A stretch of 49,643 bases of DNA from Sneathiella sp. GTDB lineage: Bacteria > Pseudomonadota > Alphaproteobacteria > Sneathiellales > Sneathiellaceae. The notes below the pieces were generated by a model. That model did not search any database and had not been told where the DNA came from. It worked only from the letters and a program-made list of their open reading frames with translations. Location of the stretch: NCBI RefSeq assembly GCF_029233945.1, contig NZ_JARGOQ010000015.1, positions 20,526-70,168 on the forward strand, given 5' to 3'. A program made the position numbers and the translations under genes. This document shows, in pieces, positions 38,533-42,931 of this stretch (its first letter is position 1; the number at the start of each line of letters is the position of its first letter).

Positions 38533-39153
38533 ATGGGGGCCAATCACAAGCATGGAGATCCGTTGCCGGAAACAGTTCTTCGGGTTAAAAGCCTTGAATC
38601 CCTGCTTATTGAAAAGGGACTTGTCGAGGCGGAGGCACTCGATGCGCTGGTTGATCGGTATGAAAACAAGGTGGGTCCTAAGAATGGCGCGAAGGTTGTT
38701 GCCCGGGCCTGGGTGGATGACGCTTATCGCGAGCGACTGCTGAAGGACGCGACTTCGGCGGTGGCGGAATTCGGATTTACCGGCGCACAGGGAGAAGAAC
38801 TGGTGGCGCTGGAGAATACGGACAAGGTTCATAATGTTGTCGTTTGTACGCTTTGCTCCTGTTACCCATGGCCGGTGCTGGGCTTGCCACCCGTCTGGTA
38901 TAAATCCGCTCCATATCGTGCGCGCGTGGTTCGTGAACCTCGAAAAGTGCTGGAAGAGTTTGGAACCCGGCTTCCCGAGGGCACGGAAGTCCGGGTGTGG
39001 GACAGCACGGCGGAAACCCGTTATCTTGTTATCCCGAAACGGCCCGAAGGGACGGAAGAAATGGATGAAGACGCTCTTGCAGAACTTGTCAATCGTGACA
39101 GCATGATCGGCACGCGGGAAGCGGATAGCCCGACCATGGCGGAAGGAGCCTGA
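38533..39153 (+). CDS. nthA: Nitrile hydratase alpha subunit, cobalt type
   Basis: Metal-binding subunit of the enzyme that hydrates nitriles to amides. The active-site loop is V-C105-T-L-C108-S109-C110 followed by [10 protein letters not shown]. The CTLCSC form and YPWP mark the non-corrin cobalt class; iron enzymes have CSLCSC. Two cysteines should be oxidised after translation. [23 protein letters not shown] follows. GGAGG precedes ATG 38533. It is the first gene of alpha-beta-activator, separated from beta by 1 bp. Confidence 0.96.
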
Positions 39154-39154
39154 C

Positions 39155-39820
39155 ATGGATGGCATTCATGATATGGGCGGCATGCATGGCATGGGCCCGA
39201 TAGAGCCCGAGGAGAATGAACCGGTTTTCCATGCGAACTGGGAAAAGCGAATGTTCGCCATGAATAATGCAATGCCTGCCGGGATACGTAGTATAGACGA
39301 ATCCCGCCATGCGCGCGAACGCATGAACCCCGGCACCTATCTTTCAAGCAGCTATTACGAAATCTGGCTTGATGGTCTCATTCGTATCCTGAGTGAGAAA
39401 GGCATTATTTCGGAAGAAGAGCTGACCGGCGGTGTTGCGCCGAAGCCAGTATCAACACCAAGGCCAGCCTTGAAAGCCGAAGATGTCGACGCGGTTATGA
39501 GCAAAGGTGGAAACTATATTGCGGACGCGGGAAAGCCAGCCCGTTTCAGGGTGGGGGATAAGGTGCGCGCAAGAAACATACATCCGGTGGGGCATACGCG
39601 ACTCCCTCGTTACGCAAGGGGGCATATTGGTGAGATCGTTGCCGATTACGGCCCGCATGTTTTCCCGGATGCAAGTGCTGCGGGCAGGAGCGATCCGCAG
39701 CCGCTTTACAGCGTCAAGTTCGCCTCCACCGAACTTTGGGGCCCGGACGGCACCGAAGGTGACTATATTTATATTGATCTGTGGGACGATTATCTGGAGG
39801 CGGCAAGCGATGGCGCTTGA
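39155..39820 (+). CDS. nthB: Nitrile hydratase beta subunit
   Basis: Structural partner of the alpha subunit. The N-terminus (MDGIHDMGGMHGMGPI, then EPVFHANWEKRMFAM) is the family signature. SYYEIWLDGLIRILSEKGI follows, and the C-terminal SH3-like domain (about 128-221) has FRVGDKVRARNIHPVGHTRLPRYARGHIGEI and YSVKFASTELWG. The 221 residues are normal. Its end overlaps the activator start by 11 bp. Confidence 0.96.
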   Translation: MDGIHDMGGMHGMGPIEPEENEPVFHANWEKRMFAMNNAMPAGIRSIDESRHARERMNPGTYLSSSYYEIWLDGLIRILSEKGIISEEELTGGVAPKPVSTPRPALKAEDVDAVMSKGGNYIADAGKPARFRVGDKVRARNIHPVGHTRLPRYARGHIGEIVADYGPHVFPDASAAGRSDPQPLYSVKFASTELWGPDGTEGDYIYIDLWDDYLEAASDGA

Positions 39821-40172
39821 TCCCACTCTGCAGTCTATCAGCATCCCGCAGGATGAAGAGGGTCCTGTGTTCGATGAACCCTGGCAGGCGCAGGCTTTTG
39901 CTCTGACGGTCAAGCTGAATGAGGCGGGGCAGTTCAGTTGGAGTGAATGGGCGGAAGTCTTTGGTGCCGAAATCGCGGCGGATACAGAGTCAGGGCAAGG
40001 GGTCGGCAATACCGCCTATTACCATTGCTGGCTCTCGGCACTAGAAAAAATCGTCGCTCTAAAAGCATTGCTCACGCCAGAACAGTTGTCGGTGCGCAAG
40101 GCGGAATGGCGGGAGGCGTCGGAACATACGCCACATGGCCAACCGATTGAAATTCGCAAATCGCCGAAATAG
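39810..40172 (+). CDS. Nitrile hydratase activator/accessory protein
   Basis: A 120-residue protein (MALDPTLQSIS) of the nitrile hydratase accessory family, related to the beta-subunit N-terminal domain. GPVFDEPWQAQAFALTVKL parallels EPVFHANWEKRMFAM of beta, and NTAYYHCWLSALEKIV parallels SYYEIWLDGLIRIL. In cobalt enzymes this protein helps insert cobalt and oxidise the cysteines. I chose ATG 39810 with GGAGG 9 nt upstream; the open frame reaches back to 39507 in the wrong place. Confidence 0.9.
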   Translation: MALDPTLQSISIPQDEEGPVFDEPWQAQAFALTVKLNEAGQFSWSEWAEVFGAEIAADTESGQGVGNTAYYHCWLSALEKIVALKALLTPEQLSVRKAEWREASEHTPHGQPIEIRKSPK

Positions 40173-40516: not shown

Positions 40517-42028
40517 TTAATCCAATGTATGGATCGGCAGATCCAGAAGTGCACGGCGACGGAGCCACTGGCTCGGCCGATAACGGTCTTCCCCGGTAAT
40601 TTCCTGCAGTGTCTTCATAATCTTGAGGCAGTTCCGGGTGCCCATATTTTCGGCGAGTTCAACCGATCCCAACGGATAATTGAGCCCCAGCTTCATCCCC
40701 TTGTCGATATCCTCCGGTGTTGCGACTCCAATTTGAGCCATTTCGCAGCCGAGATTCGCGATCATGGCTCGGATGCGTTGGGCGACAAAACCCGGGTTAT
40801 CCTTGATGCGCGTGACACCGCCGGAAACCTCGCTCAACATTGCCATAACGGATTGAACGATTTCTTCGTTGACACCGGGAGCGGCCATCACGGTCGCGCG
40901 GGAGAAAACGCCTGTATGGGTATCGATGGCGACAAGGCGCTTCGGATCAAGGTCGAGACGGGCGCATAGCGCCGTACAGTCTTCCCCGATCGGATCGGCA
41001 AGAATAGGCGACGCGCCGTCGTCCTCAGAGAGAACACTCACGCCAAGATCCCGTAATAGACCATCCAGCGCAGCGGAAGGTTCGGCAAGGATAACGCGGC
41101 GCGCCGGACTTGCGGAGATTTCTTCTGCTACATCCGGCCGGATGATGGTGCCATCTTCGGTGTATTCATAGAATCCGGCCTTCGTCTTTTTGCCAAGGCG
41201 GCCCGCCTCCATCATGCTTTCATGCAGGGGATAGGTGGAGAGGCGCTTGTCTTGGAAATAGCCGTTGTAAATGATCTGGCTAACCGGAAAATTAACGTCA
41301 ATACCGGTCAGGTCGATAAGCTCGAACGGACCCATGCGGAAACCGCAGGCCTCCCGCATGATGGCGTCTACCTGAAACGGCGTTGCCACGCCTTCAGATA
41401 CGATCCGAAGGGCCTCCGTGGTATAAGCACGACCGCCAAGATTGACAAGGAAACCGGGCGCATCCTTGACGACTACGGGAACGCGGCCCATTCGCTTTCC
41501 GATGACTTCCAGCGCCTTGGTGACATCCTCGCTGGTGTCGGTGCCATTAATGACCTCGACCAGTTTCATCAGGGGAACCGGGTTGAAGAAATGCAGACCC
41601 GCAATCCGACCGCGATGGGTGCAGGCGGAGGCGATGGAGGAAATGCGGATGCTGGACGTGTTGGAGGCAATAATGGTGTCCGGCTGGACAACGTTTTCCA
41701 ACTGCTGGAAGACCTTCTGTTTGATATCGATATTTTCAATAATCGCCTCAACGACCAGATCGCATTCAGAAAGCCCTTCGATGCCGTCCGCGACATGGAG
41801 GCGCTCAATCGCTTCGTCGCCTTCACTCTTCTCCAACCGGCCCTTTTCAACGGACCGACTAATCATGGAGGTGATAAAATCTTTTGCCGCGGCTGCCGCA
41901 CCGTCGGCGGCGTCGTAAATATAAACCAACATGCCGCCGGTTGCGGATACCTGTGCGATGCCCCTGCCCATTGCGCCAGCGCCGACGATACCTATCTTTA
42001 AATCCCGCTTTTGCGGATCGATGCTCAT
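40517..42028 (-). CDS. 3-hydroxyacyl-CoA dehydrogenase, two-domain (PaaH-like)
   Basis: NAD-dependent oxidation of 3-hydroxyacyl-CoA in fatty-acid or aromatic-acid breakdown. The Rossmann loop is GIVGAGAMGRGIA (about 13-25). IASNTSSIRISSIAS and GLHFFNPVPLMKLVEVI carry the catalytic His, with Glu in the same family segment. A second 3HCDH domain closes the protein (DNPGFVAQRIRAMIANLG). With about 503 residues it resembles PaaH. I chose ATG 42028 (MSIDPQKRDLK) with GGAAAAG upstream. No enoyl-CoA hydratase or thiolase is adjacent. Confidence 0.92.
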   Translation of the reverse strand: MSIDPQKRDLKIGIVGAGAMGRGIAQVSATGGMLVYIYDAADGAAAAAKDFITSMISRSVEKGRLEKSEGDEAIERLHVADGIEGLSECDLVVEAIIENIDIKQKVFQQLENVVQPDTIIASNTSSIRISSIASACTHRGRIAGLHFFNPVPLMKLVEVINGTDTSEDVTKALEVIGKRMGRVPVVVKDAPGFLVNLGGRAYTTEALRIVSEGVATPFQVDAIMREACGFRMGPFELIDLTGIDVNFPVSQIIYNGYFQDKRLSTYPLHESMMEAGRLGKKTKAGFYEYTEDGTIIRPDVAEEISASPARRVILAEPSAALDGLLRDLGVSVLSEDDGASPILADPIGEDCTALCARLDLDPKRLVAIDTHTGVFSRATVMAAPGVNEEIVQSVMAMLSEVSGGVTRIKDNPGFVAQRIRAMIANLGCEMAQIGVATPEDIDKGMKLGLNYPLGSVELAENMGTRNCLKIMKTLQEITGEDRYRPSQWLRRRALLDLPIHTLD

Positions 42029-42102
42029 TTGCTTTTCCATTATTGTTCTTGTCGAAAGTTGATGTGACTTATACCGTGCGCAGGAAATTTGTAAAACCCT
42101 AC

Positions 42103-42132
42103 CTTGATGCCACGGCACCTAGTCCTTACATA
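42103..42132 (+). promoter_or_regulatory. Candidate heat-shock/sigma-70 promoter for hsp20
   Basis: CTTGAT (42103-42108), 16 bp, CTTACAT (42125-42131) resembles an alphaproteobacterial RpoH promoter. Read as sigma-70 it is TTGATG, 17 bp, TACATA (42127-42132). Either gives a start near 42139, exactly where the first leader hairpin begins. Confidence 0.45.
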
Positions 42133-42140
42133 AATAAGCA

Positions 42141-42222
42141 ATAGTGCCTTTTTGGGCTATTCAGGGCTGCGGTTAATGGCTAACCGGCAGCAGGCTCGCT
42201 CATTTGGAGGAGAATATGTATG
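42141..42222 (+). promoter_or_regulatory. ROSE-like RNA thermometer in the hsp20 leader
   Basis: Three tandem hairpins: ATAGTGCC/GGGCTAT around TTTTT (42141-42160, one bulge); GCTGCGGTTA/TAACCGGCAGC (42166-42191, one bulge); and CTCGCTC (42195-42201) against GAGGAG of the ribosome binding site (42207-42212). The last contains TCGCT (42196-42200), matching the UYGCU consensus that faces the SD in ROSE elements, with G facing G. ROSE thermometers are known to control small heat-shock genes in alphaproteobacteria. Confidence 0.6.
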
Positions 42223-42678
42223 CCGCGCGCATCATCATTTAATCACCCGCTCATGCTGGGGTTTGATCGGTTTGACCAGATTCTCGACCAGCTTTCGAAA
42301 TCTTCAAAGGAAGGTTATCCGCCCTATAATATTGAGCAGATGAGCGATAACGCATTGCGAATTACGCTTGCTGTCGCCGGTTTTACCGAGGATGATCTCC
42401 AGATAACACTGGAACAAAACCAACTTATCATTCATGGTAAGCAAAGGGACGAGTCGGAGCGTGTTTTCCTTCACCGTGGAATCGCAGCTCGTCAGTTCCA
42501 GCGTAAATTTGTTCTTGCGGAGGGGTTGAAAGTTACCGGCGCTGATATGGAAAACGGGCTTCTACATATTGAATTGCAGCTGCCGACGCCGAAAATGGAA
42601 AGTCACCAAATCAAGATCAGAAAAAAAAGTTCTAAAAAAGAAATGAAGCCCGTCAATTCGTCGGAATTTATTGACTGA
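42220..42678 (+). CDS. Small heat-shock protein, Hsp20/alpha-crystallin family
   Basis: ATP-independent holdase chaperone of 152 residues. The N-terminus has SSFNHPLMLGFDRFDQIL, as in IbpA-like Hsp20. The alpha-crystallin domain spans about 35-125: YNIEQMSDNALRITLAVAGF, IHGKQRDESERVFLHRGIAARQFQRKFVLAEGL, and ADMENGLLHIELQ, the A-x-x-x-x-G-L-L signature. A Lys-rich tail follows. The strong GGAGGAG ribosome binding site is 8-9 nt upstream and may be thermally masked. DUF1150 follows by 34 bp. Confidence 0.95.
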   Translation: MPRASSFNHPLMLGFDRFDQILDQLSKSSKEGYPPYNIEQMSDNALRITLAVAGFTEDDLQITLEQNQLIIHGKQRDESERVFLHRGIAARQFQRKFVLAEGLKVTGADMENGLLHIELQLPTPKMESHQIKIRKKSSKKEMKPVNSSEFID

Positions 42679-42712
42679 TAATTTATTGGGGTCGCGTTAA
42701 GGAGTTTTAAAA

Positions 42713-42931
42713 ATGCAATATCAGGAAGCTACTCTCCGCCATTTAAGTCCCGCCGCTTTCGGCATGTTGGGCTCAATGGATATGGCTTATATCCGTGCCG
42801 CTGAAGAAGACGGAGGCATTGTCTTTCGCATTTTTGCCGCCAACGGCCAGCAACTTGGAGAAGAGAAGTCGGCCGATGCTGCTATGGTTGTCGCCCGCCA
42901 GAATGATTTCGAGGCGTTTCTCGTCAACTAG
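42713..42931 (+). CDS. DUF1150 family protein
   Basis: A 72-residue protein of the DUF1150 family, which usually sits directly after hsp20 in alphaproteobacteria. Visible core: YIRAAEEDGGIVFRIFAANGQQLG and AMVVARQNDFEAFLVN. AAGGAG lies 8 nt before ATG 42713. A role linked to heat shock is inferred from the constant neighbourhood only. It converges on ptsN with a 34-bp gap containing a run of seven T. Confidence 0.9.
   Translation: MQYQEATLRHLSPAAFGMLGSMDMAYIRAAEEDGGIVFRIFAANGQQLGEEKSADAAMVVARQNDFEAFLVN

Follow-up and report, generated by a model that had tools for sequence, protein, structure and literature searches.

A candidate ROSE-like RNA thermometer ahead of a predicted hsp20–larA heat-shock operon in Sneathiella and other Alphaproteobacteria

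ROSE-like RNA thermometers are described as leaders in which a U(U/C)GCU motif masks the Shine–Dalgarno (SD) sequence with a predicted bulged G and opens on heating (PMC3669281, PMC11342760). The ibpA leader of Escherichia coli is counted among the best-studied examples (PMC3669281), and a miniROSE RNA reportedly no longer allows translation, at low or at high temperature, once its conserved G is deleted (PMC4288164). A prediction made in 2005, as cited in PMC3669281 and PMC4166951, gave more than 40 alpha- and gammaproteobacterial ROSE candidates, and ROSE leaders of alphaproteobacterial heat-shock genes are already on record (PMC5756330, PMC2873474). The 2005 candidates may already include some of the hsp20 leaders treated below, for example in Caulobacter. 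In that genus LarA, a DUF1150 protein, is encoded directly after the small heat-shock gene shsp2, and the shsp2–larA operon is described as directly regulated by sigma-32 (PMC10665427). According to the same source, LarA activates the Lon protease via its last five residues, and its C-terminal histidine is important for the interaction with Lon (PMC10665427).

Here, we report a computational analysis of the leader ahead of an hsp20 gene of Sneathiella sp., located in a window, i.e. the whole stretch of DNA analysed, of 49,643 nucleotides. The leader is very probably a ROSE-like RNA thermometer that controls the first gene of an hsp20–larA heat-shock operon. An earlier note on this DNA had read it as a ROSE-like thermometer; anatomy, position, a heat-shock-type promoter and comparative evidence support that reading, to which the thermal switch is added by analogy.

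Three sets of leaders were compared. The 23 family leaders come from 22 genomes of the window's genus, its own included, and one genome of a sister genus; the pool comprised 24 genus genomes and the one of the sister genus, and outside the 23 are G002, where the locus is split between contigs, and G007, which is without a clear ortholog. The named set consists of the best 80 class loci of a scan, from other genomes, and includes Acetobacteraceae, Azospirillum, Thalassospira, Tistrella, Magnetospirillum, some Rhodobacteraceae, Kordiimonas and many MAGs. The third set holds the leaders of 17 further class genomes. Start codons were picked by an SD-seeking rule, which favours starts with an SD.

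Promoter, leader fold and operon

The leader sits between hsp20 and a divergent 3-hydroxyacyl-CoA dehydrogenase gene (Table 1). Its predicted promoter, with CTTGAT at −35 (42103-42108) and CTTACAT at −10 (42125-42131) separated by a 16 nt spacer, is close to the alphaproteobacterial RpoH1 consensus, given as CTTGAA-N15-16-CCTATAT (PMC4843759). A scan for sigma-70 promoters did not list it. Transcription would plausibly start at about 42138-42140, a position predicted from the promoter; a start near 42139 at the foot of the hairpins, as the earlier note had it, is thus plausible, and the start downstream of 42190 that the note had named as counting against its reading disagrees with a promoter that places the predicted start upstream of all three hairpins.

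Table 1. Predicted features of the leader and the operon that it heads (window coordinates)
Feature	Position	Strand	Basis
RpoH (sigma-32) type promoter, predicted	42103..42131	+	Sequence match; family conservation
Hairpin SL1, 8 pairs, bulged G 42146, YGCC/GGR motif	42140..42161	+	Fold; covariation
Hairpin SL2, most stable of the three	42166..42191	+	Fold
Anti-SD CUCGCUC with ROSE motif UCGCU, bulged G 42198	42195..42201	+	Fold
SD GAGGAG, wholly paired within SL3 (42195-42212)	42207..42212	+	Fold
hsp20, small heat-shock protein, 152 aa	42220-42678	+	Pfam HSP20, E 2e-17
SD of the DUF1150 gene, AAGGAG	42699..42704	+	Sequence; fold
DUF1150 gene, 72 aa, likely larA orthologue	42713..42931	+	Pfam DUF1150

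The minimum-energy fold of 42139-42240 forms three hairpins ahead of the start codon. The last of them contains the pairing of GAGGAG with CTCGCTC that had been claimed, as six standard pairs, CUC(G)CUC/GAGGAG, and one bulged G. UCGCU lies opposite the SD as the earlier note had stated, but the G facing a G that it had also drawn is replaced in the predicted fold by the single bulged G 42198. That wording is founded in the literature, where a G–G contact is described in the NMR structure of the Bradyrhizobium ROSE element (PMC11342760), and not in the fold of the window. The order of promoter, three hairpins, masked SD, hsp20 and DUF1150 is otherwise as described, judged from the fold, Pfam and the promoter sequence. 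In the window and the closest relatives, SL2 has an unpaired G on its 3′ side (42186), a shape that differs from that of more distant members of the genus. A further observation is that SL1, and in some relatives SL2 too, presents its bulged G in a YGCC/GGR setting resembling that of the SD hairpin, without contact to the SD.

The sequence of events that the ROSE-like family suggests by analogy, from use of RpoH and the start site to melting and a translational switch, would be as follows. The RpoH-type promoter would give a transcript with a 5′ leader of about 80 nt and three hairpins; at growth temperature the weak third hairpin would pair UCGCU with the SD and block ribosome loading, and on heating this hairpin would open and allow hsp20 to be translated.

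The nearest NCBIfam model to the Hsp20 protein is IbpA, with a score under that model's cut-off. The DUF1150 ORF, which starts 34 nt past the end of hsp20, matches its Pfam family at 22.4 bits (E 0.00014) and does not reach the cut-off of 25. It combines this family resemblance with a position directly after a small heat-shock gene, as LarA does, and ends in FLVN in place of a C-terminal His; from its sequence it is likely a larA orthologue. A DUF1150-like ORF follows hsp20 at 72 of the best 80 named loci, 22 of the 23 family loci and 12 of the 17 other class loci. One class DUF1150 protein compared with plasmids by tblastn gave no match. The AAGGAG of the DUF1150 gene is computed to be about 0.42-0.45 unpaired between 25 and 42 °C, and no ROSE-type masking hairpin was seen over it. 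Since larA thus has its own, apparently unmasked SD, any effect on larA would come through transcription or translational coupling.

Two side observations concern the wider setting. A C-terminal His, as in Caulobacter LarA, is present in 71 of 84 class DUF1150 relatives outside the family and in none of 21 within the window's genus (one of which, L018, appears cut short); the sister-genus protein (L025) has it. On these sequences, Lon activation may have been lost or changed in the window's genus. Elsewhere in the window, at 38533-40172, lie ORFs resembling cobalt-type nitrile hydratase subunits, with VCTLCSCY in the translation.

Conservation and computed temperature response

Within the family the promoter is well preserved: the −35/−10 spacing is identical in 22 of 23 leaders (20 by regular expression, L010 and L013 by eye) and shorter by one base in L025. 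The promoter pattern of a separate count occurs in 21 of the 23, against 0.36 expected from shuffles, and beyond the family in 3 of the best 80 named and 2 of the 17 other class leaders; a second pattern occurs in 21 family leaders, 13 of the best 80 named and 1 other class leader. As these patterns are rare in the wider leaders, promoter conservation is not established outside the family.

The core of the third hairpin is more strictly retained. TCGCTC is invariant across the 23 family leaders, all of which form a bulged-G helix over the SD (1.93 expected after shuffling everything but the SD arm); in all 23 the helix also carries U(U/C)GCU (0.41 expected). RNAalifold, with no structure supplied, recovered SL1, four of whose pairs vary on both sides, together with an SL3-like pairing partly out of register. 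In a model-fitted alignment of the same 23 leaders, five pairs of SL1, and 11 of 21 pairs overall, are changed on both sides; the double-change cells number 53 against 16.2 in shuffles, and 96.1% of cells are paired against 42-52% with slid partners. Such an alignment leans towards the structure to which it is fitted, a bias guarded against by the slid and shuffled controls and by the structure-free RNAalifold result. SL2 and the exact register of SL3 were not judged from the MAFFT alignments, in which variable loops are mis-registered.

SL3 itself is nearly fixed in the family, its outer pair being C-G in 22 leaders and U-G in one. This near-invariance is expected if the SD fixes the sequence, and the pairing of SL3 within the family therefore rests on conservation and not on covariation. 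An absence of covariation, which the earlier note had named as evidence against its reading, is not what was found: stems 1 and 2 covary within the family, and stem 3 does so only class-wide. The leader of G002 (L154), added later and used in none of the models, agrees with the others in promoter spacing, in SL1 and in its CUCGCUC-GAGGAG hairpin; over 569 bases, the covariance model R2 described below gives it 46.2 bits.

The folding energy of the leader is ordinary (z 0.45), being equalled or bettered by 132 of 200 shuffles, so that the case for a structure exceeding chance rests on conservation. SL3 is the weakest hairpin, at −4.2 kcal/mol at 37 °C and −3.4 at 42 °C, compared with −12.1 kcal/mol for SL2 and −5.3 for SL1 (in an alternative fold) at 37 °C. 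Nearest-neighbour folding, a method that here does not separate leaders from controls, gives the SD in the window an unpaired fraction that rises from 0.04 at 25 °C to 0.15 at 42 °C. Between the same temperatures the median goes from 0.147 to 0.161 in the 23 family leaders, from 0.235 to 0.261 in 79 of the best 80 named leaders, from 0.377 to 0.363 in the 17 class leaders and from 0.317 to 0.407 in 32 control ORFs. At 25 °C the SD is more hidden than in controls for the family (p 0.005) and the named set (p 0.003), but this does not hold for the other 17 class leaders. The rise on going to 42 °C has a median of 0.013 in the family, 0.018 in the named set, 0.022 in the other class leaders, 0.019 in the controls and 0.040 in 30 leaders of a paralogous hsp20 gene. 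The same folding applied to the known E. coli ibpA thermometer yields a fall from 0.43 at 25 °C to 0.32 at 42 °C, which is the wrong direction; since the computation fails on ibpA, the computed opening of the SD cannot decide whether the leader is a thermometer.

Distribution among alphaproteobacterial hsp20 leaders

Judged by sequence and predicted pairing, the leader is one of a widespread alphaproteobacterial set found before hsp20–larA. A six-pair bulged-G helix over the SD occurs in 73 of the best 80 named leaders (8.91 expected) and 11 of the 17 others (1.53 expected); with U(U/C)GCU the counts are 67 (1.34 expected) and 10 (0.18 expected), respectively. Because counts of this kind select helices that pair, the evidence lies in the comparison with the shuffle expectation and not in the pairing as such. 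At the threshold used, the helix is absent from 7 of the best 80 named and 6 of the 17 other leaders. With no threshold applied, 79 of 97 class leaders, the best 80 named included among the 97, have the exact U(U/C)GCU within their best helix.

Across the class, SL3 changes in step: its outer pair is C-G, U-G, U-A, G-C or A-U, and its inner pair mostly C-G or U-A. Among 44 class model matches, two of them off target, both-side changes affect 17 of 21 pairs, including 5 of the 6 SL3 pairs, and the double-change cells number 114 against 30.8 in shuffles. Three Amylibacter leaders (Rhodobacteraceae; L123, L134, L148) read GUCGCUU/AAGGGC, with both arms of the SD hairpin jointly different from those of the window.

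Two covariance models were used. R2, trained on six relatives with the window excluded, found its best match in the window at 42139-42216 (20.5 bits, E 0.0016; the next match had E 0.79). On the best 80 named loci (342 kb) it gave 44 matches at E ≤ 10, 42 of which, including all of ranks 1-37, lie directly upstream of hsp20 on the same strand; the off-target matches are at L147 and L117. No upstream match was obtained at 38 of these 80 loci, and the reach of R2 is therefore limited. R3 is a wider model built from 55 leaders, with the window and class leaders in training and with training sources that omit the off-target loci L117 and L147 as well as L004, L006 and L009. In 142 whole class genomes it gave 20 matches at E ≤ 0.1, of which, among the matches listed, 19 stand directly before an Hsp20 gene (the exception is G104:C15). 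Under these stricter filters 122 of the 142 genomes had no R3 match, and an Hsp20 match at E ≤ 1e-20 is present in at least 95 of them all. Some of the 142 may coincide with named training loci. As the window and class leaders were in its training, the R3 genome scan is a test of specificity rather than an independent discovery.

An Infernal search against the ROSE families, which the earlier note had proposed as a check, lent no support, with no match in the window. No Rfam family reached its gathering score there, and within 41900-42400 no ROSE family appeared at E ≤ 10, the sole match being isrN (E 1.2, far under its cut-off). The element lies below the cut-offs of both RF00435 ROSE (45 bits) and RF01832 ROSE_2 (65 bits). 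The 20 family leader loci scanned, of the 23, gave no Rfam family at E ≤ 1, and the 40 scanned of the best 80 named loci gave no ROSE family at gathering score, with a tRNA as the only match. The element is therefore ROSE-like by anatomy and not a member of the Rfam ROSE families; in anatomy, position and evolution, as read from sequence comparison, it is a ROSE-like candidate thermometer of a known kind, outside the Rfam models.

A second hsp20 in the same genome (L003:1501-1593; G000 contig 105, 31300-31392) has a classical ROSE leader of the UUGCU type, which RF00435 matches at 37.7 bits, under its cut-off of 45. RF00435 appears at E ≤ 1 in 9 of 20 paralogue loci scanned from a set of 30, always under the cut-off. 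In none of the 142 class genomes does it exceed the cut-off, and in 7 it reaches E ≤ 0.01; at least 5 of these 7 matches stand immediately ahead of an Hsp20 gene of the paralogue type and, among the matches listed, none before the window's type. R2 is weak on the paralogue leaders (14 matches at E ≤ 10 and at most 13.0 bits in 31 sources, E. coli included). As RF00435 reaches the paralogue leaders and R2 scores them low, one genome holds two separable subfamilies of one kind. Both have a bulged-G YGCC/GGR hairpin, which occurs in 22 of 23 family leaders (0.36 in shuffles), 66 of the best 80 named (3.3), 10 of the 17 other class leaders (0.7) and 28 of 30 paralogue leaders (0.44). This shared hairpin favours, short of proof, a common origin of the two subfamilies.

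Alternative explanations and comparison with known thermometers

The strongest rival to a thermometer is a static, conserved 5′ UTR that would protect the mRNA or keep translation constantly low, with heat control exerted only at transcription via RpoH. It would agree with the covariation of stems 1 and 2 beside a stem 3 that hardly varies in the family, with the great stability of SL2, with the slight computed melting and with the direct sigma-32 regulation described for Caulobacter shsp2–larA (PMC10665427). The conserved core, however, is exactly the SD and the anti-SD with its bulged G; the exact U(U/C)GCU recurs in the best helix across the class leaders counted above; the hairpin that masks the SD is the weakest of the three; and a very similar hairpin is found in the known E. 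coli ibpA thermometer (PMC3669281). We regard a static leader as improbable.

It is very unlikely that temperature acts indirectly, through a small RNA, a ribosomal or other RNA-binding protein or the operon's own small heat-shock protein, that binds the bulged-G hairpins in trans and governs translation. We know of no trans-acting factor of such a kind. The YGCC/GGR hairpin upstream of SL3 is conserved though it does not touch the SD, which speaks for such a factor and suggests a role beyond simple spacing; yet the same bulged hairpin is present in the Rfam ROSE consensus and in nearly all paralogue leaders, and thus fits a ROSE-type leader. In another ROSE-like element, moreover, the SD stem alone is reported to give full heat induction (PMC11342760). 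That an ordinary purine-rich SD merely happens to lie near a pyrimidine stretch would explain a fold energy equal to that of shuffles and the silence of Rfam, but conservation and covariation far above the shuffled and slid controls, and covariance models specific to leaders before hsp20, make a chance resemblance scarcely credible.

Taking the leader as a ROSE-like thermometer, we can propose a broader reading only tentatively, and consider it rather doubtful: an ancient family across much of the Alphaproteobacteria, distinct from Rfam ROSE and from the paralogous leader of the same genome and dedicated to hsp20–larA, in which one RNA switch atop RpoH would gate both Hsp20 and LarA and two to three tandem bulged-G hairpins would act jointly. 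If this is true, the holding of aggregates (Hsp20) and the activation of Lon (LarA) would be gated by a single RNA switch. The candidate thermometer heads an operon from which Caulobacter obtains the Lon activator LarA, and temperature gating of Lon activation at translation, besides transcription, becomes directly testable. In the open-access literature DUF1150 was met only in the LarA paper (PMC10665427), whose main text contains neither 'thermometer' nor 'untranslated'; open-access papers that join LarA, Lon protease and thermometer treat, by title and the start of the abstract, other subjects. From this distribution, ROSE-like control ahead of small heat-shock genes seems to be more widespread in the Alphaproteobacteria than Rfam annotation indicates, and the covariance models supplied here find such leaders.

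The leader shares with described ROSE-like elements an imperfect pairing of U(U/C)GCU with the SD, in the 3′-proximal hairpin and with a predicted bulged G, a number of hairpins (three) within the two to four found in 5′ leaders of small heat-shock genes (here by Pfam HSP20), and evolutionary retention of the structure. The four consecutive U on the SD that define FourU thermometers, as that class is described, are not part of its anti-SD, CUCGCUC. Rfam ROSE (RF00435) has in its consensus the same order of three hairpins, UUGCU on the SD and an unpaired G before CC in the first hairpin; it differs in a longer last stem that includes bases around the AUG. The ROSE-G elements, as described, also place a G-containing anti-SD on the SD, but they have CUGCU and two bulged Gs that face each other, and precede ABC transporter genes (PMC12857270), whereas the window has UCGCU and a single bulged G with no facing G in the fold. 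By description only, the leader can be likened to the Rfam-annotated ROSE element before an Hsp20 gene of Gluconobacter oxydans (PMC5756330) and to two ROSE-like leaders of Sinorhizobium meliloti (PMC2873474). The short ROSE-like leaders of Pseudomonas ibpA are described with two hairpins against the three of the window, and have the same short U(U/C)GCU SD hairpin and an AUG predicted to be unpaired (PMC3669281).

The comparison with E. coli ibpA is the most direct. Its thermometer, presumably a member of Rfam ROSE_2 (RF01832), differs in being gammaproteobacterial and in an upstream stretch that folds otherwise, and the window has no RF01832 match; the ibpA hairpin is in the best computed structure at 42 and 50 °C only. 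Nevertheless, E. coli ibpA carries CUCGCUGAUUUCAGGAG, which is nearly SL3 of the window: its SD hairpin reads CUC(G)CUG-AUUU-CAGGAG, compared with CUC(G)CUC-AUUUG-GAGGAG here, and in both cases the AUG lies outside the hairpin and the gene that follows encodes a small heat-shock protein.
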